Assembly (NCBI GenBank): GCA_026985075.1
Contig: JALSQX010000010.1
Location: 1 to 64,000, forward strand
Reading direction: 5' to 3'
From: Blastocatellia bacterium
Lineage (GTDB): Bacteria; Acidobacteriota; Blastocatellia; HR10; J050
Length of the DNA stretch: 64,000 nucleotides
Shown here: piece by piece, positions 1 to 58,794 of the stretch
Layout: each line of letters starts with the position of its first letter
Position numbering within the stretch: the first letter of the stretch is position 1
Notes under the pieces: model-generated
Database searches by the model: none
Told to the model about the DNA's origin: nothing
The model's input: the letters and a program-made list of their open reading frames with translations, nothing else
Program-made: the position numbers and the translations under genes

Positions 1-405
1 CTGCCGCAACACCTCCCCCCCTCGGGGAAACCGACAGGCCACATTGCCCCGATACACCGTGACCACCCCACGCCCCCCACCACCATAGCCACCAACCAAA
101 TCCTCCACCCCATCCCCATCCACATCGCCCGAAGCCAAAACCCGTGGCCCCACCTGCCCAGCCCTCATCGCCGCCACCACCTCGGCCTCCCCCTCATAGA
201 CCGCCGACAACCACCGCCCTTCCCCCAAATTCACCCACGGCCGCCCTCGCCCCTCAGCCCGAAGAACCACCCCACCGCTCACCTCACCCCCGGTGCCCAT
301 CATGCTGAGAAAAACCCCCACCGTGACCATGACCCCTATCACCCCTGTGATCGCCATATTGATATTGATACTGGAACTGATACTGGAAATGACCCCTCGT
401 TTCAT
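1..405 (-). CDS. FG-GAP/VCBS-type repeat protein, N-terminal part (runs off the window)
   Basis: The first 135 codons of a gene that continues past base 1. ATG at 405 is preceded by GGAGGGAAAGAAG, a good ribosome site. The N-terminus is a short basic start and a serine/isoleucine stretch leading into a hydrophobic segment (about residues 15-38), read as a signal peptide or anchor. Further on, SGDVDGDGVEDLVGGYGGGG is the calcium-binding DxDxDG loop plus glycine-rich turn of an FG-GAP/VCBS beta-propeller blade. Such proteins are exported and often bind ligands or surfaces; the ligand cannot be told. It lies downstream, on the same strand, of the propeller-type sigma-54 activator, and a sigma-54-like element stands before it, so it may be that activator's target (inference). 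Confidence 0.7.
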   Translation of the reverse strand, partial: MKRGVISSISSSININMAITGVIGVMVTVGVFLSMMGTGGEVSGGVVLRAEGRGRPWVNLGEGRWLSAVYEGEAEVVAAMRAGQVGPRVLASGDVDGDGVEDLVGGYGGGGRGVVTVYRGNVACRFPRGGEVLRQ

Positions 406-524
406 CTTCTTTCCCTCCGTTTCGTTGAATTTACCTTGGCTAGCCGCCAGCGCCCTAGCGCGCCACCCTCGCCAGACTGCTGTCATCAGACCCACATCAC
501 GGCCAGAAGGCCACATCTTCCTAT

Positions 525-540
525 GAAATTGGCGTGCCAA
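525..540 (-). promoter_or_regulatory. Possible sigma-54 (-24/-12) promoter of the FG-GAP gene
   Basis: Minus strand reads TTGGCACGCCAATTTC. The -24 half TTGGCACG is a perfect consensus match; the -12 half has TTTC where TTGC is expected, so one of the most conserved positions is wrong. It lies about 120 bases before the start of the FG-GAP gene. No convincing sigma-70 promoter was seen in this gap. Confidence 0.35.
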
Positions 541-607
541 ACCGGGCCAATCGGGATAACGCCCTGAGAGGAGAAGAGTTAGACGAAAAACTGCCGCTAC
601 CGTCTTG

Positions 608-676
608 GTGTGTCACCGACACACTTTGTGTCCCATCGGTGTGTCAATGTGTGTCAAGAGACGTCTCAGGTGAGAC
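608..676. promoter_or_regulatory. Cluster of dyads, candidate upstream activating sequences
   Basis: Within 70 bases lie GTGTGTCACCGACACAC (608-624, 7-base arms), further TGTGTC copies starting at 627, 640 and 650, the palindrome GAGACGTCTC (658-667) and GTCTCAGGTGAGAC (663-676, 6-base arms). They sit 70-150 bases upstream of the sigma-54-like element, where enhancer-binding proteins usually bind. The rest of the gap 406-1161 shows no gene; TCACTGAGACCC occurs twice, at 1105 and 1170. Confidence 0.4.
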
Positions 677-1161
677 ACTTTTGGTGGTCTTGCTGGGGAG
701 TGGGGTGAGAAAATATTGCCCAGCGGGGAAAATTTCTCTGCTCGGCCGGGGTGACCGTCTCGGCTCAGACTCCGGAAGCTGGCCTCCGGGATGAGGCGCG
801 GCGGGATAGTGAAGGAGGGAAGCCGTGGCAAGGAGCCAGCCTGGAAGCCAGCCTCCAGGGAGTGGCGCTCGTCAGCTCGTTGACGCCGCCCTCAACTGAG
901 CCCCCCGCCGACCGAGCCGCGGGGCTGCCATCTCTGCCCATCCTGCATTTGGCCGTGGGGATCGGACCTGAGCCCCTCGAAAATAAGCGTAACGCACATC
1001 GGCAACTTGCGCTACGCATTCTCTCCCCCTCGGTGTGGCCCGCGGCGCGCGGGGCCATGGGTGGCTCCCTGGAAGAACCCGCGAAACCTGCGGGGACATG
1101 CTCATCACTGAGACCCCGGCTTTTGTTGCAGGGGGGAAGGAGCAGACCGAGTGTGCCAATA

Positions 1162-4100
1162 TTACTCGTCACTGAGACCCAGCCGTTTGAGTCGTCGGTA
1201 GAGGGTGGAGCGACTGATGCCCAGCCGCCGGGCGGCGGCAGCACGTTGGCCGCCGCTCTGCTCCAACGCCTCCAGAATGCGTCGACTCTCGTCCCGACGC
1301 CCATCGTCGACGGAAGAGTTTGGAGGGGGCGTGCCACCGAGTTTGGCAGGCAGGTCTCCAATCTGGATGATGGTTCCCTTGCAACGAACGGCCGCCCACT
1401 CGATGGCGCTTTTCAATTCCCGGACATTCCCCGGCCAGGGATAGGTCATCAGGACGTGTATGACCTCCTGACTCACATCCGGCATCCTCTTCCCCGATTC
1501 AGCCCGCAACTGTCCCAGAAACCAGGCTACCAGCAAAGGGATATCCGATGGCCGCTCGCGTAGTGGAGGAAGGTGAATTTCCGCGGCGCTGATTCGATAG
1601 AGCAAATCCGGACGAAATCGCCCTGCGGCCACGTCCTGGTGCAAATTGTGATGGGTAGCAGCGACCACGCGAACATCGATTTGTCGCGGCTTGGACTCAC
1701 CCAGCCGGATGATCTCCTTCTCCTGCAACACCCGCAGCAGCGTCGCCTGCAGGGGGAGCGAGAGATCTCCGATTTCGTCCAGCAGCAGCGTGCCGCCCTC
1801 GGCCGCTTCGAAGACGCCCTGCTGATCGGCCACAGCGCCGGTGAACGCGCCTCGGCGGTGGCCAAACAATTGACTGGCCACCAATGATTCGGTCAACCCG
1901 GCGCAGTTGACGGCAATGAACGGCTTATCTCGGCGCCGGCTGGCGTAATGGACGGCGCGGGCCACCAGTTCCTTTCCCGTTCCCGTCTCGCCGGTGATCA
2001 GGATGATCGTATCCACCCGAGCCAGATCCTGGATCTGCTCGTAGACCAGTTTCATGGCCCGACTCCCTCCAATCAGATCATGAAATTTCGTCTTGTCACC
2101 CAGCAACTGACGCAGGTCGTAGACTTCCGAGACATCGTGGAGGAAGAAGATGCGGTGGTCGGCACGGCGGGGATCGACTACGACCTCAATCTCGATCCAG
2201 TAGCGGCGTCCCGTTCGAGCATGGAACGCAATGGGGATCTTACTGGGCGGGTTCGGGGGCTGATCGAGCAACACTTTCAACTGGTTCCGATCCGGTGCCG
2301 AGAGCGGAAACAATGTCGTCCAGTGCTGACCCAACACCTCGTCCTGTCGCCGCTCCAGCAGCCGCTCGGCCGCCTGACTCACGAATGTCACCCGTCCCTC
2401 GGCGTCGGTGATGACGGCCCCCTGGTGGAACTGATTGAGGATGGAGAGCATATTGGTATTGACTCGTTCTAATTGCCGGTTGGCCGAGGCCAACTGATTC
2501 CTGTGCTGGACCACTTCGGCCGTGCGCGCCGCCACCATGGCCTCCAATTCCCGCGTGCGCTGCTCCAACCGCTTGACCTGCAGCTTGTAGCCGCCCCATC
2601 CGGCCGCCAGTAACATCCCCACAACAAGGGCATAAAACCATCCGGTTTGATAGACGTGAGGCGCCAGGGAGATCTCGATGGCCGCCTCCCGCTCACTCCA
2701 CACGCCGTCATTGTTCATCGCGAGGACGCGGAAGCGGTAGTCTCCGGGTGGAACTTTGGTGTAATAAGCGACCCGACGGGAGCCGGCATCCACCCAGTGG
2801 CCGTCAAATCCTTCCAGCTTATACTTGAAGCGCATTTTCTCCGGCGCCTGGAAACACAATCCCGTGTAGTGAATCTCCACATCTCCCGGGCCCGGCGGTG
2901 CCTTGATCCTCCGACGGCGATCCATCAGCGCGTCATCGATCAAAACCCGCTCGATGTGCACCAGCGGCGGCTGCTCGTTCAGATCACTGGGGTCGATGAT
3001 GACGATCCCACTGATGGTGGGAAACCACAGCCGGCCATCCCGCGTTCTCCATCCGGCGGGCTGGCTGCCTCCGTTGCATTCGCTGACCTCCATGCCATCG
3101 GCCAGACCATAAGAGATGGACGTCACCGAGCCGATGCGGTCATCGGCAAAGTCATTCAGTTGCCGCAGGCTGACCCGGAAGATGCCCCGGTTGCCGCTCA
3201 TCCACAGGTTCCCCCGATCATCTTCCAGAATCCGCGAGACGACATTATCGAACAATCCGTCCCGCCGGGTGATGGCCGTAAACCTCCCCTCCTTGAATCG
3301 GTTCAAGCCACCACCATAGGTGCCGATCCACAGCGCGCCATCAGCTCCCTGATAAATGGCTCGAACGTAGCTGTTGGACAATCCCTGCTCGGTCGTGTAG
3401 TTGGTGAACGTCCCATCCTGGAAGCGACTGAGGCCGCCGAGCGTGCCGATCCACAGCGCACCCTGAGCATCTTCGGTGATGAACCGCACATCATCATGCA
3501 CCAAGCCATCGGCCTTCCGGTAGACGGTGAAGGTTCCGTCGTGGAATTGATTCAACCCGTGCTGGGTCCCAACCCACAGCCTCCCGGCCCGATCCTGATA
3601 CAGGGCCAGGACCACATCGTCCGAGAGGTTGCTGTTTGAGCGGGTATAGGTCGTAAAGTACCCATCCTTGAATCGGGTTACCCCCCCGCCCCAGCTCCCG
3701 ATCCAGAGGCTGCCATCCCGGTCGGCGGCCAGCGACCAGATACATTCTGGCGGCAGGCCTCGACCCGGAGTGTAGGTCGTCAGCTTCCCGGCGGCGAGTC
3801 GAACCAATCCGCCACAGGTGGCGCCGATCCAGATGTTCCCCTCGCCATCTTCCGTGATGGGGACGACTTCTTCATCGGGCAGCCCTTGCTCGGTGGACAA
3901 GACGGTCAGTTTCTGACGCTTCTGTTGGATGAGTCCGCCCCCACTGGTGCCGATCCAGAGATCCCCTTCGCGGTCCTCCATCAGACACCTCACCTCCTCG
4001 CCCGAGAGACCATTGTTGGTTGCCGTGGTCGTCCAGGCTCCTTCGGCCCATCGGTTCAGCCCACCCGCTCGGGTACCCACCCACAGACTCCCCGCTCGAT

Positions 4101-4905
4101 CCTCCAGGAGACATTCGATGAAGTTGTCCGACAGACCATTGGCCGTAGTGTACCGGGTCACTGTTCCATCGCGTAGCCGGAACAGGCCATTGTGGGTACC
4201 CACCCACAGACTCCCGTCCCGCCCCTGCTCAATGGCATGAACCCAATGCCTAACATCACCGGTCGGGGTCAGGATTGTGGTCAGCACGCCATCCCGGAGG
4301 TGGGCTAATCTTCCTCCCCAGAGACCAACCCACAGGGTTCCTTCACGATCCGGACAGAAGGCCGAGACATGCTCGAGCAGCTTCCCTTCACCAGTCGTGC
4401 AGGGGAGAAACGCCCCGTCACGCCAGCGGCCGAGCCCAACGGGGGTGTTGATCCACAGTGCGCCATCTCCATCCTCGACAATGGACAGGATGGTATCAGA
4501 CGGCAGGCCATCATCGACCGTGTATCTCGTCCATGCCCCCCGATCATATTGCGTCAGTCCACCGGCTTCGGTGCCGATCCACAGCGTCCCTCGCCGATCC
4601 TCACACAGCGAAAGGATCCGATTACTCTTCAGAGTTTCCGTGTTTTCCGCATCAAACAGAGTGAACGCGACCCCATCGAAGCGGGCTAAGCCGCCAAGCG
4701 TGCCCAACCAGATGTAGCCATCGTGGGTCTGGACGATGGCAGTGATGGTGTTTTGCGGCAAGCCATCCTCAGTGGTCCAAACGCGACAGATGTATCGTCC
4801 CGAGCGGTCCTCGGGCGGTTGTGCCAAACGGGCCTCGGCGGCGGAGACGAGAGGGGAAAGTCCCAGCAACAAAACGACGAGACCCCTCACACTTTCAAAA
4901 CCCAT
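1162..4905 (-). CDS. Membrane-anchored sigma-54 activator with beta-propeller sensor (Reg_prop/Y_Y_Y/PAS/AAA+/Fis)
   Basis: A 1247-residue one-component regulator. A signal peptide is followed by about 14 'two-component regulator propeller' repeats (core LWIGT/LWVGT with DGLP turns; roughly residues 30-650), a Y_Y_Y domain, a membrane segment near 755-773, a coiled coil, a PAS domain (about 820-925), a sigma-54 AAA+ domain with Walker A GETGTGKE (972-979), GAFTGA loop (1019-1024) and Walker B LLLDEIGD, and a C-terminal Fis-type helix-turn-helix (about 1220-1241). The propeller/Y_Y_Y sensor is known from hybrid two-component systems; here the kinase and receiver are absent and the sensor is joined straight to the sigma-54 activator. 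The start at 4905 has GGAG seven bases upstream and lies downstream of a sigma-70 promoter; a longer frame from 4992 would begin above that promoter. Confidence 0.9.
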   Translation of the reverse strand: MGFESVRGLVVLLLGLSPLVSAAEARLAQPPEDRSGRYICRVWTTEDGLPQNTITAIVQTHDGYIWLGTLGGLARFDGVAFTLFDAENTETLKSNRILSLCEDRRGTLWIGTEAGGLTQYDRGAWTRYTVDDGLPSDTILSIVEDGDGALWINTPVGLGRWRDGAFLPCTTGEGKLLEHVSAFCPDREGTLWVGLWGGRLAHLRDGVLTTILTPTGDVRHWVHAIEQGRDGSLWVGTHNGLFRLRDGTVTRYTTANGLSDNFIECLLEDRAGSLWVGTRAGGLNRWAEGAWTTTATNNGLSGEEVRCLMEDREGDLWIGTSGGGLIQQKRQKLTVLSTEQGLPDEEVVPITEDGEGNIWIGATCGGLVRLAAGKLTTYTPGRGLPPECIWSLAADRDGSLWIGSWGGGVTRFKDGYFTTYTRSNSNLSDDVVLALYQDRAGRLWVGTQHGLNQFHDGTFTVYRKADGLVHDDVRFITEDAQGALWIGTLGGLSRFQDGTFTNYTTEQGLSNSYVRAIYQGADGALWIGTYGGGLNRFKEGRFTAITRRDGLFDNVVSRILEDDRGNLWMSGNRGIFRVSLRQLNDFADDRIGSVTSISYGLADGMEVSECNGGSQPAGWRTRDGRLWFPTISGIVIIDPSDLNEQPPLVHIERVLIDDALMDRRRRIKAPPGPGDVEIHYTGLCFQAPEKMRFKYKLEGFDGHWVDAGSRRVAYYTKVPPGDYRFRVLAMNNDGVWSEREAAIEISLAPHVYQTGWFYALVVGMLLAAGWGGYKLQVKRLEQRTRELEAMVAARTAEVVQHRNQLASANRQLERVNTNMLSILNQFHQGAVITDAEGRVTFVSQAAERLLERRQDEVLGQHWTTLFPLSAPDRNQLKVLLDQPPNPPSKIPIAFHARTGRRYWIEIEVVVDPRRADHRIFFLHDVSEVYDLRQLLGDKTKFHDLIGGSRAMKLVYEQIQDLARVDTIILITGETGTGKELVARAVHYASRRRDKPFIAVNCAGLTESLVASQLFGHRRGAFTGAVADQQGVFEAAEGGTLLLDEIGDLSLPLQATLLRVLQEKEIIRLGESKPRQIDVRVVAATHHNLHQDVAAGRFRPDLLYRISAAEIHLPPLRERPSDIPLLVAWFLGQLRAESGKRMPDVSQEVIHVLMTYPWPGNVRELKSAIEWAAVRCKGTIIQIGDLPAKLGGTPPPNSSVDDGRRDESRRILEALEQSGGQRAAAARRLGISRSTLYRRLKRLGLSDE

Positions 4906-4960
4906 ACCACGCTCCAAGCTATTTTCGGACGACGCCCCAAAGGACCCGAAAATCGACCCC

Positions 4961-4989
4961 AGTATACGCCGTTGAGCGATCGATGGCAA
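4961..4989 (-). promoter_or_regulatory. Sigma-70-type promoter of the propeller/sigma-54 activator
   Basis: Minus strand TTGCCA (4984-4989), 17-base spacer, TATACT (4961-4966). Predicted start near 4954 gives a leader of about 50 bases to the ATG at 4905. Confidence 0.6.
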
Positions 4990-5719
4990 CAATTATTTTC
5001 AAAAATGGAAAGCTCACCAGGAGGAGCGAGCCCCGGATGTGGGCATTGAAGGTTCGAGAAGCCGTGAACCGGCGACTCAGGAGCACGTGTCCCTGAATGC
5101 CGACACGTGAAGGACACGCCCAGCAGGGCGGGCGCGAGCCCGCACGTGAAGCCACGTCGGTATGATGCGGGCCTCTCTGGAGCGAGGACGCTCACGCTCG
5201 TGTCCGGGGGCGCGCTGGGCGCTGATCAGAGAGTCGCGCGCCGGGGACTCCGGAGTTCAGCCTCAATGGCCTTGGGATTCTCACGGCAAAAAGCAGGAAT
5301 GGCCCACGGATCACCCACGGCGAACGGCGGGATTCGCACAGATTTTTTCCTGTGATTGATCCGTGGTGATCCCGCCGTTTTGGTGTTCATCTGTGGGCTA
5401 TTTTTCCCAGGAACACTCTGTTTGGACATCCTGCCACTCAGTCGGCGGAGAGGCGTCACCGTGTGAGCGAGTTCGAGCTGATGAGCGTCACCGCACCCCA
5501 GAGGCCGGCTCCTGGGCCAGTTCTGGGCCATTTGGTTTTCCCTGCGAGGCGAGCCCCCATGACTCCTTCACTGCACCGCTGAGCCTCCGGGACTCCAGCG
5601 GCTGTCGCCGCGACCTTCTCCCTCTCATTCTTCACCGCACTGACGCGCCCTCACACTTCGGTCCGTCGCGGCCCGGGGACAAAAAATGGGTCGGGATGCC
5701 TCTCTCCGAGTCCTCGAAA
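4990..5719. other. Gene-free region with interleaved inverted repeats
   Basis: No convincing gene. CACGTG occurs at 5084, 5104 and 5143, and GCGGGC-GCGA-GCCCGC (5128-5143) could form a tight hairpin. At 5305-5378 two inverted repeats interleave: CACGGATCA (5305) with TGATCCGTG (5357), and ACGGCGGGAT (5324) with ATCCCGCCGT (5369), with a small CACAG/CTGTG hairpin between. The plus-strand open frame from 5363 mainly mirrors the exported-protein gene on the other strand. Confidence 0.5.
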
Positions 5720-52756: not shown

Positions 52757-54112
52757 TCACGATGCCTCCCGCTTCAGTTGATATTTCTTGATCTTATTGT
52801 ACAGCGTCACCCGGTCGATACCCAACAACCGAGCGGCGCGCGAGATATTCCATCCCGTCTCTCTCAACACGCGCTCGATGTGTTGGCGTTCCACATCGGC
52901 CAGCGTTCGTCCCGGGGAAAATTCTCGTCCTCCATTGACCTGGAAGGGGAGATCGCCCGGTTGAATCTCCCCGGTCTTACAAACCAGGACAGCGCGTTCG
53001 ATGGCATTTTGCAGCTCGCGCACGTTCCCCGGCCAGTCATAATCGATGAGCAAATCCATGGCGGCCGGTGACACGCCAGCGATGGATTTGTTCATGCTCC
53101 GGGCAAACTTGTGCAGAAAGTGTTCCACCAGCAGGGGAATATCTTCTCGCCGCTCGCGCAGCGGAGGGATGGCAATGGAAAAGACGTTCAATCGATAATA
53201 TAAATCCTCGCGGAATCTCCCCTCGGCGACCATAGCTTCCAGGTCCTTATTGGTCGCGGCGATCAATCGAAAATCCACCGGGATCAGTCTATTCCCACCC
53301 ACACGACAGATCTTTTTCTCCTCCAGTACCCGTAACAGATCGATCTGTGTCTTCAAGCTGATGTCGCCGATTTCGTCCAGGAATAGTGTCCCTCCGTCGG
53401 CCATCTCAAACTTCCCCTTCCGCCGGTACTGGGCTCCGGTGAATGCTCCTTTCTCATGCCCAAAGAGCTCGCTCTCCAGGATGCCCTCAGCCAGCGCGCC
53501 ACAATTGACGACGACAATGGGCATGTAGCGGCGCGGGCTGTTGGCGTGAATTGCTCGAGCGATCAATTCCTTGCCGGTGCCACTCTCACCCCGGATGAGA
53601 ACCGTCGTATCGGACTGGGCGACGAGCCTGACCTGCTCCAGCACGCGTTGGATGGCTGGACTCCGTCCTACGATCTCGTGAAACTGGTTCATCTCGTCGA
53701 TCTTCCGGCGGAGCTGAACATTCTCTGCCATCAACTGCTTCCGCTCAACGGCATTGCGAATCAAGTGCTCCAGGTCATCGGGATCGAACGGTTTGACGAT
53801 GTAGTCATACGCCCCTTGTTTCATCGCCTCCACGGCCGTCTCTACCGAAGCATAGGCCGTCATGATGATAACGGTGGAGCGAGGATGCATCTGCTTGATC
53901 TTGCGCTGAAGCTCGAGGCCATCCATGCCGGGCATCTTGATATCGATCAGAAAAATATCCCATTGTCCCGTAGTCAACTTCTGCAAAGCGTCCTTCCCCG
54001 AGGCGGCCACATCGACGGCGTATCCCTCCTCGCGGAACCAGCTCCCCAGAGAGCGACGAACGATCTCTTCGTCATCGACGATCAAGATGCGGATGTGGTC
54101 TTTCCTCGCCAT
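52757..54112 (-). CDS. Sigma-54-dependent response regulator (NtrC/ZraR type)
   Basis: 451 residues: receiver domain (1-120) with acidic pair DDEE (13-16), phospho-acceptor D57 in FLIDIKMPG and K107 in IVKPFD; AAA+ domain with Walker A GESGTGKE (175-182), GAFTGA (222-227) and Walker B GGTLFLDEIGD; C-terminal Fis helix-turn-helix (GWNISRAARLLGIDRVTLYNKIKKYQL). It activates sigma-54 promoters when phosphorylated. Its start lies 31 bases inside the end of the haem kinase gene, so both are made from one mRNA. Sigma-54 promoters near the GcvH-like genes, the kinase and a cytochrome are probable targets. Confidence 0.95.
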   Translation of the reverse strand: MARKDHIRILIVDDEEIVRRSLGSWFREEGYAVDVAASGKDALQKLTTGQWDIFLIDIKMPGMDGLELQRKIKQMHPRSTVIIMTAYASVETAVEAMKQGAYDYIVKPFDPDDLEHLIRNAVERKQLMAENVQLRRKIDEMNQFHEIVGRSPAIQRVLEQVRLVAQSDTTVLIRGESGTGKELIARAIHANSPRRYMPIVVVNCGALAEGILESELFGHEKGAFTGAQYRRKGKFEMADGGTLFLDEIGDISLKTQIDLLRVLEEKKICRVGGNRLIPVDFRLIAATNKDLEAMVAEGRFREDLYYRLNVFSIAIPPLRERREDIPLLVEHFLHKFARSMNKSIAGVSPAAMDLLIDYDWPGNVRELQNAIERAVLVCKTGEIQPGDLPFQVNGGREFSPGRTLADVERQHIERVLRETGWNISRAARLLGIDRVTLYNKIKKYQLKREAS

Positions 54113-55803: not shown

Positions 55804-56116
55804 GATGTGCTCCTCGCCCCCTCTCGGTCAGATCAACCTCAAATCCCCTTCATCGCCGCATCTCCACTATCAGCGTGTGCAACTTCCATTCCAAAACGGC
55901 GCTCAGGGTGGACTCACCGCTCGCTCACAAGTCACGCTCATTCAGTACATTACACGATATCGCCGGGGATATGGCATTCACAGAAGCCACGTTGCATAAC
56001 CGTATGGGTCAAACCGCCCAGTGATGCGCCTTGACACCCCCACCGCGGCGCCCATACCGATCTCGGTTGTGGAATGGCTGATGCTGGACCTCGAGTCGCG
56101 GTCGCGTCAGGCATCG
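55804..56116 (-). promoter_or_regulatory. Intergenic region with a sigma-54-like promoter for the kinase-regulator operon
   Basis: Minus strand TTGGAATGGAAGTTGCA (55878-55894): GG and GC with the correct ten-base interval, -12 perfect, -24 TTGGAATG one to two changes from TTGGCACG. It gives a leader of about 65 bases. No GTTGAA/TTCAAC dyads like those before the GcvH-like genes were seen here. No gene in the gap. Confidence 0.45.
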
Positions 56117-58212: not shown

Positions 58213-58794
58213 ACTATAACAGTGCCTCACCGCACGAGGTGACGCTCAGGGGCCAGAAACTTCAGTTGAAGCGCGCAGCCGCGTCCGCTCCCCGGCGAGT
58301 CGATAAACGATCCTCGGAGTCACCGTGCTGGCCATTGACGGCGGTCCTCCGCTCGCCCGAGAGCGGAGCCCTCGATCTTCGCCCGGTGACGCTGCGACTG
58401 GTGTCTCTTTCGACGATGGCGACCGCCGTCCCGGTACACCGCATCGAGAGCAAAACCGCCCGATATCCCATGAGAATGGGTGGCGCGGGCCAAACATGCT
58501 GAGGAGGAGATTGAGGGAACGCGCTCTTCGCCGTCCGTCGAGCTCTCCGGTTCCCTTTCTCCTCGAAGGGGAGATTGGGGGAAAATGGGCCCGCACTGGG
58601 GCATAATCCCCACAGGACGGCTTCGACACGGGAGTGGGTTTCAGGGCCGCCAGAACAACTCTCACCACCGCTTGAGGATATGCGATGATGGGAGCGGTGG
58701 ATCACGTGCCCGCCTCGCGGCACGAGGTTTGCATTTTGGTTCGTGTATGGCGACTGCAAGAGGAAGCCTAACGAATCGCCATCAGGAGGCGATG

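Follow-up and report, generated by a model that had tools for sequence, protein, structure and literature searches.

The segment at positions 524 to 678 is likely to be the enhancer and sigma-54 promoter of an FG-GAP gene, operated by the sensor-activator whose gene adjoins it, and this activator probably switches on its neighbor directly, as judged from sequence comparison. The segment lies in a 64-kb stretch (the window) that forms the start of contig C10 in a draft genome of 5.2 Mb. The original prediction had named it as a candidate target region of the activator in front of the FG-GAP gene, a reading that its recurrence in relatives appears to support. What was observed directly comprises the domain make-up of the activator, an rpoN gene, an array of half-sites, its recurrence behind related activators, the spacing, and the uniqueness of two strict array patterns.

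The FG-GAP gene (1-405, minus strand; ATG at 405-403) has a signal-like start, is truncated by the contig end and is preceded by a GGAGGG (413-418, minus strand) read from the sequence as Shine-Dalgarno-like. Its Pfam FG-GAP match reaches 21 bits against a cut-off of 22.1 (E 3e-4). The start of the gene has four DNA-level paralogues elsewhere in the genome, and CSLREA was found in the three FG-GAP paralogues scanned, above the curated cut-off in two and slightly below it in one. At the paralogous genes (L002-L005), a search for sigma-54 sites agreeing at 15 of 17 positions, including the four free ones, was negative, so the window copy is unlike these four. The start of this contig lies within the FG-GAP gene and the end of contig C63 within a paralogue (L003); FG-GAP-type repeat genes may be breaking the assembly at contig ends. 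In L003, a TTGACA and a TATTAT with 17 bases between them were seen by eye at approximately 965-1000, about 360 bases 5' of the paralogous FG-GAP gene, and this pair may belong to another frame.

The activator gene (1162-4992, minus strand) was characterized by Pfam, motifs, and hydropathy. Its product has a signal-like segment and, according to Pfam, a Reg_prop propeller (2.7e-71), Y_Y_Y (4.8e-18), PAS, Sigma54_activat, an AAA lid, and HTH_8. The AAA+ part carries the Walker A motif GETGTGKE and the GAFTGA loop, and the Fis-type HTH (LGISRSTLYRRL) corresponds to HTH_8 (E 1.8e-12). Histidine kinase, receiver, and AraC domains were absent from its Pfam matches at E 0.001, and its score against TIGR02915 (PrsR/PEP-CTERM-box response regulator) was 294.4 bits, below the cut-off of 502.6. 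By its AAA+ and HTH domains, and with one rpoN match above the cut-off in the same genome, the protein is a probable sigma-54 enhancer-binding protein. The PAS-AAA+-Fis HTH output is shared by L010, L011, L012, and L112 (Pfam; PAS unreported for L011).

Translation of the activator likely starts at 4905 (Met30), immediately 5' of the hydrophobic segment, and hydropathy analysis gave one segment above the threshold, at residues 34-52. A hydrophobic N-terminal segment exceeded the threshold in the window activator as well as in L010, L011, L012, L147, L150, and L112. In the window activator, the segment near residue 790, ahead of PAS, is hydrophobic by eye and below the hydropathy threshold; a pre-PAS membrane segment passed it in four of the nine propeller activators (L012, L147, L149, and L150) and stayed below it in the window, L010, L011, and L112, L111 being incomplete. 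The membrane topology of the propeller activators is thus a prediction that hydropathy partly bears out.

The sigma-54-like promoter TTGGCACGCCAATTTCA (524-540, minus strand) has a perfect -24 element with the GG present (TTGGCACG, 533-540, minus strand) and reads TTTC at -12, where the GC expected ten bases after the GG is replaced by TC (TTTCA versus TTGCA). The perfect -24 half with an imperfect -12 half that had been described beforehand is thereby confirmed; the site resembles the -24/-12 class but fails the GC at -12. It has the top sigma-54-like score on the minus strand of 405-1161. Shuffles of 505-1161 attain this score in 1.25% of cases, and in the 64 kb, both strands included, the site shares ranks 5-6. 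Genome-wide, 26 exact sigma-54 sites were found versus 0 for the reversed pattern. Matches to TGGCACG-N4-TTNCW numbered 29, comprising 26 with TTGC and one each with TTTC (the window), TTCC, and TTAC; the TTTC variant stands at background, because the reversed control gave 3 matches. The imperfect -12 element is the main doubt about the promoter, which may be weak or decayed, or may contain a wrong base near the contig end. Two TGGCACGCCAATTGCA sites, differing by one letter from the window site, are present elsewhere in the genome. In nine Nitrospirales loci, the site reads TTGGCAY-N5-TTG followed by A, T, or G, the -12 G being kept and the C lost; an imperfect -12 recurs in the activator family, but the Nitrospirales defect takes another form than that of the window.

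The candidate enhancer array (608-678) is separated from the promoter-like site by 68 bp. It consists of the half-sites TGACACAC (608-615, 639-646, and 649-656, minus strand), TGGGACAC (628-635, minus strand), and TGAGACAC (671-678, plus strand), together with an inverted GACACAC (618-624, plus strand); on the plus strand, TGTGTC starts at 609, 627, 640, and 650, and there is one GACACA at 618. The original prediction had drawn attention to TTGGCACG, to GTGTGTCACCGACACAC (608-624), to four TGTGTC copies, and to GTCTCAGGTGAGAC (663-676), and all of these strings are present. The dyad at 608-624 has perfect arms in a 7-3-7 arrangement (GTGTGTC ACC GACACAC), and a search for GTGTNTCNNNGANACAC matched only there in the 5.2-Mb genome. 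The dyad at 663-676 overlaps the outermost half-site and was also classed as a plus-strand terminator-like stem, of which one was found and 0.7 expected.

Chance was assessed on the 757 bases of 405-1161 against dinucleotide shuffles. The dyads were real but did not by themselves exceed chance: perfect inverted repeats with 7-base arms numbered 1 versus 0.28 expected, a count reached by 21.6% of shuffles and not significant, and those with 6-base arms 4 versus 1.2 expected (reached by 6%). Judging the array by its dyads alone was consequently dropped, the 7-base arms being within chance. TGTGTC/GACACA occurred 5 times versus 0.28 expected, with a maximum of 3 in 1000 shuffles, and a 60-base span holds 5 copies in the array and at most 1 anywhere else in the 64 kb. 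The unit of the array is a directly repeated half-site at intervals of approximately one helical turn, and the dyads are secondary. Five-mer repeats within the window numbered 7, 0, and 5 at lags 10, 11, and 12, an excess reached in 0 of 300 shuffles, although none fell at lag 11 itself, a point against the preferred reading. A test of the commonest 6-mer per region found nothing in the window (p 0.24), and only 5 of 30 regions had a commonest 6-mer that 400 shuffles never matched. Genome-wide uniqueness was assessed with two strict patterns, GTGTNTC-N3-GANACAC and TGRVACA-N4-TGRVACA, each of which has only one match, in the array; because of these single matches, the circuit looks private, with one activator, one array, and one neighbor. 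A DNA search with the array stretch in 98 genomes matched the window's own genome and none of the 97 others.

Relatives were sampled in two ways. A search with the activator C-terminus in 162 genomes of the class gave 10 sequences of at least 478 bits, the window included, and the rest reached at most 298; a search of the genome collection with a PAS-linker alignment gave 20 loci from Acidobacteria/Blastocatellia, Nitrospirales, Nitrospirae/Nitrospira, Binatia, Phycisphaerae, and Hydrogenedentes, and also matched 14 of 396 Acidobacteriota genomes at 1e-15. Loci sampled twice were counted once (L085/L111, L084/L112, L088/L115, L087/L118, and L012/L120), those whose contig ends at the activator were left uncounted (G002:C63 and G030, the latter for L112; the L116 frame runs off its contig), and the nine Nitrospirales loci are interrelated. 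In total, 30 regions 3' of activators were compared, the window included.

Two to eight half-sites followed by a sigma-54-like site were found 3' of the activator gene in 23 of the 30 loci, half-sites and their absence being judged by eye; adding L115, which has no array by eye and an in-frame stop in the activator frame and lies outside the 30 regions, makes the tally 23 of 31. The gap between the array and the sigma-54-like site was 55-100 bp in 21 of these 23 loci and 182-185 bp in L151 and L152, a tabulation that is descriptive and carries no test. With the window set aside, a related half-site and a sigma-54-like site were seen in 22 of the 29 other loci (20 of 22 with a 55-100-bp gap); the comparison with relatives that had been proposed thus supports the target-region reading, with direct repeats as the main unit and the dyads secondary. 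L113, L117, L121, L129, L153, L154, and L155 have no array by eye. In 21 of the 30 regions, no more than 5% of shuffles attained the best sigma-54 score. The ten closest relatives, among which the window is counted, include eight with downstream DNA, and both elements are present in seven of these; in one of the seven, L049, the sigma-54 score was reached by 8% of shuffles. Examples of the arrays are TGAAACAC/TGAGACAC in 11-bp steps in L012, four TGAGACA in 11-bp steps plus GTGGCATGACGCTTGCA in L148, TGTCAC/GTGACA plus TTGGCACGCCTCTTGCT in L147, and GTGTTCAATCTGAACAC and GCGGCACACTGCTTGCA in L011.

The shared motif was tested in 10 related regions picked after inspection, with the window excluded. 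Of the 10, 7 contain TGAGACAC, and in 300 shuffled sets the best shared 8-mer was found in 3 regions (249 sets), 4 (50 sets), or 5 (1 set). A matrix built from the sites with at most one mismatch of TGAGACAC, found in 8 of the 10 regions, scored highest at 670 among all positions of the 64 kb, and its matches were densest in the 100 bases over the array, with 6 sites versus 3 in the next densest stretch at threshold 6, 6 versus 4 at threshold 5, and 9 versus 5 at threshold 4. An unsupervised motif search tried first settled on purine-rich composition and was set aside in favor of the shared 8-mer count. For periodicity, 18 regions, also picked after inspection, gave 90 five-mer repeats at lag 11 versus 9.3 in shuffles, 54 versus 10.1 at lag 22, and 28 versus 8.8 at lag 33. 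Spacings of 10-12 bp accounted for 28 of 38 same-strand neighboring pairs of TGAGACA-like sites, and none of 300 shuffles equaled the surplus of five-mer repeats at lags 10-12 in any of five sets, namely the window by itself, the propeller relatives (once with L012 and once leaving it out), the other Acidobacteriota together with Binatia, and five Nitrospirales.

An alignment of ten HTH domains and further C-termini hints that the recognition helix and the half-site may covary. Where Arg follows the helix Tyr and the Thr is preceded by S or A, the sites are mostly of the GAGACA type. In L011 (LYLW, Leu) and L111 (LYSR, Ser), which are without this Arg, no site with at most one mismatch of TGAGACAC was found, and in L147 and L150, whose helix contains Met, the sites are TGTCAC or GTTACA. 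L151 and L152 keep the Arg, yet have GTTACA-like sites, and the covariation therefore follows no simple rule.

The genes behind the related activators vary between loci. Those of the propeller relatives are repeat proteins with signal-like starts (by eye), often placed after a small gene. Relatives having both an activator and an FG-GAP neighbor had been suggested as a comparison; the equivalent stretch recurs, but an FG-GAP protein occupies the position in only one propeller relative, L012/L042, where two genes without a Pfam match precede an FG-GAP/NHL protein. In L010 and L011, an ankyrin-like gene, which scores below the cut-offs of the NCBIfam ankyrin models, comes before a choice-of-anchor-Q repeat protein (also with HYR in L011); L111 has an ankyrin gene and then a Peptidase_S74 protein; and L147 has a CSLREA, choice-of-anchor-Q, beta-helix, S-layer-homology protein. 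In L149, a second AAA+ frame, lacking a preceding sensor domain, is followed by a large frame whose start is signal-like, and L150 has two frames (both loci by eye). Among non-propeller members, the neighbor is a DUF4394 protein in L118 and a receiver gene in L122 (and, by eye, in other Nitrospirales), and frames resembling glycosyltransferases were seen by eye behind L148. The window lacks the small gene, ankyrin-repeat or ankyrin-like, that separates the array from the repeat-protein gene in L010, L011, and L111. L119, L122-L128, and L130 (Nitrospirales) share the order of activator, TGAGACA-like array, TTGGCAY site with imperfect -12, and start of a CheY-type-receiver-like gene, with Response_reg confirmed among them in L122 only.

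Other explanations of the segment differ in how they treat its two elements. The array could be a true binding site of the activator beside a sigma-54 promoter that has decayed, the FG-GAP gene no longer being activated in this strain; we consider this unlikely, although the background frequency of TTTC at -12 and the two one-letter neighbors of the site elsewhere in the genome speak for it, since the array and its 68-bp gap are retained and other members (the nine Nitrospirales loci) also have an imperfect -12, albeit with another form of defect. It is considerably less probable that the repeats are bound by a different regulator or an IHF-like protein and that the activator acts elsewhere: similar arrays lie behind the activator family in several phyla, before different genes, several members with a different recognition helix also have a different half-site, and the tested patterns have no second match in the genome, against which can be set the dispersed genomic repeats in the same intergenic region (888-1050). 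We find it hardly credible that the gene relies on a different promoter and that the cluster arose as a chance repeat or as remains of a terminator; such an origin would suit the 7-base-arm dyads, which are within chance, and the terminator-like classification of 663-676, but the half-site cluster and the motif of the relatives are far beyond shuffles, and a simple consensus scan found no sigma-70-type site at 380-1250.

If 524-678 is the control region of the FG-GAP gene, as we prefer, the propeller, presumably periplasmic, would sense a signal at the cell surface, and the resulting change would be relayed to the AAA+ ring by way of a predicted membrane helix and the PAS domain. The Fis-type domains would hold the activator on the half-sites at 608-678, from which the ring could reach across approximately 70 bp to remodel RNA polymerase-sigma-54 at 524-540. 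The FG-GAP transcript would then start near 513, with a leader of about 108 bases.

In Bacteroidetes hybrid two-component systems, one chain joins a sensor made of a Reg_prop propeller and Y_Y_Y to a cytoplasmic output with histidine kinase, receiver, and AraC domains. The window activator resembles them in this joining of propeller, Y_Y_Y, and output; unlike theirs, its output consists of PAS, sigma-54 AAA+, and Fis HTH. Enhancer-binding proteins that control a neighbor from an upstream array are already known: in a study of Clostridiales sigma-54 regulons, most predicted target operons are co-localized with the activator gene and, as in the window, an AAA+ activator is matched with a motif upstream of a sigma-54 promoter (PMC6615313). 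Most sensor domains there are described as lacking transmembrane regions, whereas a periplasmic sensor is predicted for the window-type propeller members; for fifteen groups in that study the motif is an inverted TGT/ACA repeat with a 10-12-bp spacer, whereas the window has mostly direct repeats at 10-12 bp (PMC6615313). The PrsR/PEP-CTERM system, as described, is similar to the window in having an activator motif, sometimes repeated, a sigma-54 motif about 63 nucleotides further on, and exported-protein genes (PMC1569441). PrsR, however, belongs to the receiver-type response regulators and has a transmembrane kinase as its partner, whereas the window protein scores below the TIGR02915 cut-off, and motif 1 of that system, 17 nucleotides long with TTTACA at its end, lies in front of 99 of 167 genes, whereas the window patterns match once in the genome (PMC1569441). 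The propeller-to-sigma-54 layout on one chain and the head-to-tail arrays at approximately one helical turn differ from what is known; among the matches listed from the openly licensed PMC literature, none concerned propeller sigma-54 activators or such direct-repeat arrays.

We put at somewhat below even chances the broader reading that the family (Acidobacteria, Nitrospirales, Binatia) reads tandem direct repeats on one face of the DNA, with a pitch of about 11 bp, and not classical dyads, its propeller branch being a single-chain transmembrane sensor that switches one private neighbor, usually an exported repeat protein, without kinase or phosphotransfer; it is held at that level because the membrane segment passes in only four of nine activators. 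An anonymous intergenic stretch becomes a testable circuit, together with a rule for finding targets, namely 3' of the activator gene, with half-sites approximately one helical turn apart and a sigma-54 site 55-100 bp further on. If the propeller members are transmembrane, a surface signal would be carried straight to sigma-54 within one protein. DNA-binding domains of hexameric AAA+ activators are described as binding in pairs (PMC7175178), and the direct-repeat arrays raise the question of how such a hexamer sits on head-to-tail sites. The proposed circuit would also fit the suggestion that sigma-54 governs the bacterial exterior (PMC3162934).

Several minor features of the window were recorded. 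An Rfam scan of 1-1400 gave a single match (18.9 bits versus a gathering score of 45) and none at the repeats of 888-1050. These are dispersed repeat pieces at approximately 974-1050 (five other places) and 888-963 (four other places), with 69-96% identity to their genomic copies. At the far end of the window, another sigma-54 AAA+ gene lies at 52775-53728 (minus strand), and high-scoring sigma-54-like sites are located at 55894 and 57757 (minus strand) and at 58717 and 62191 (plus strand).
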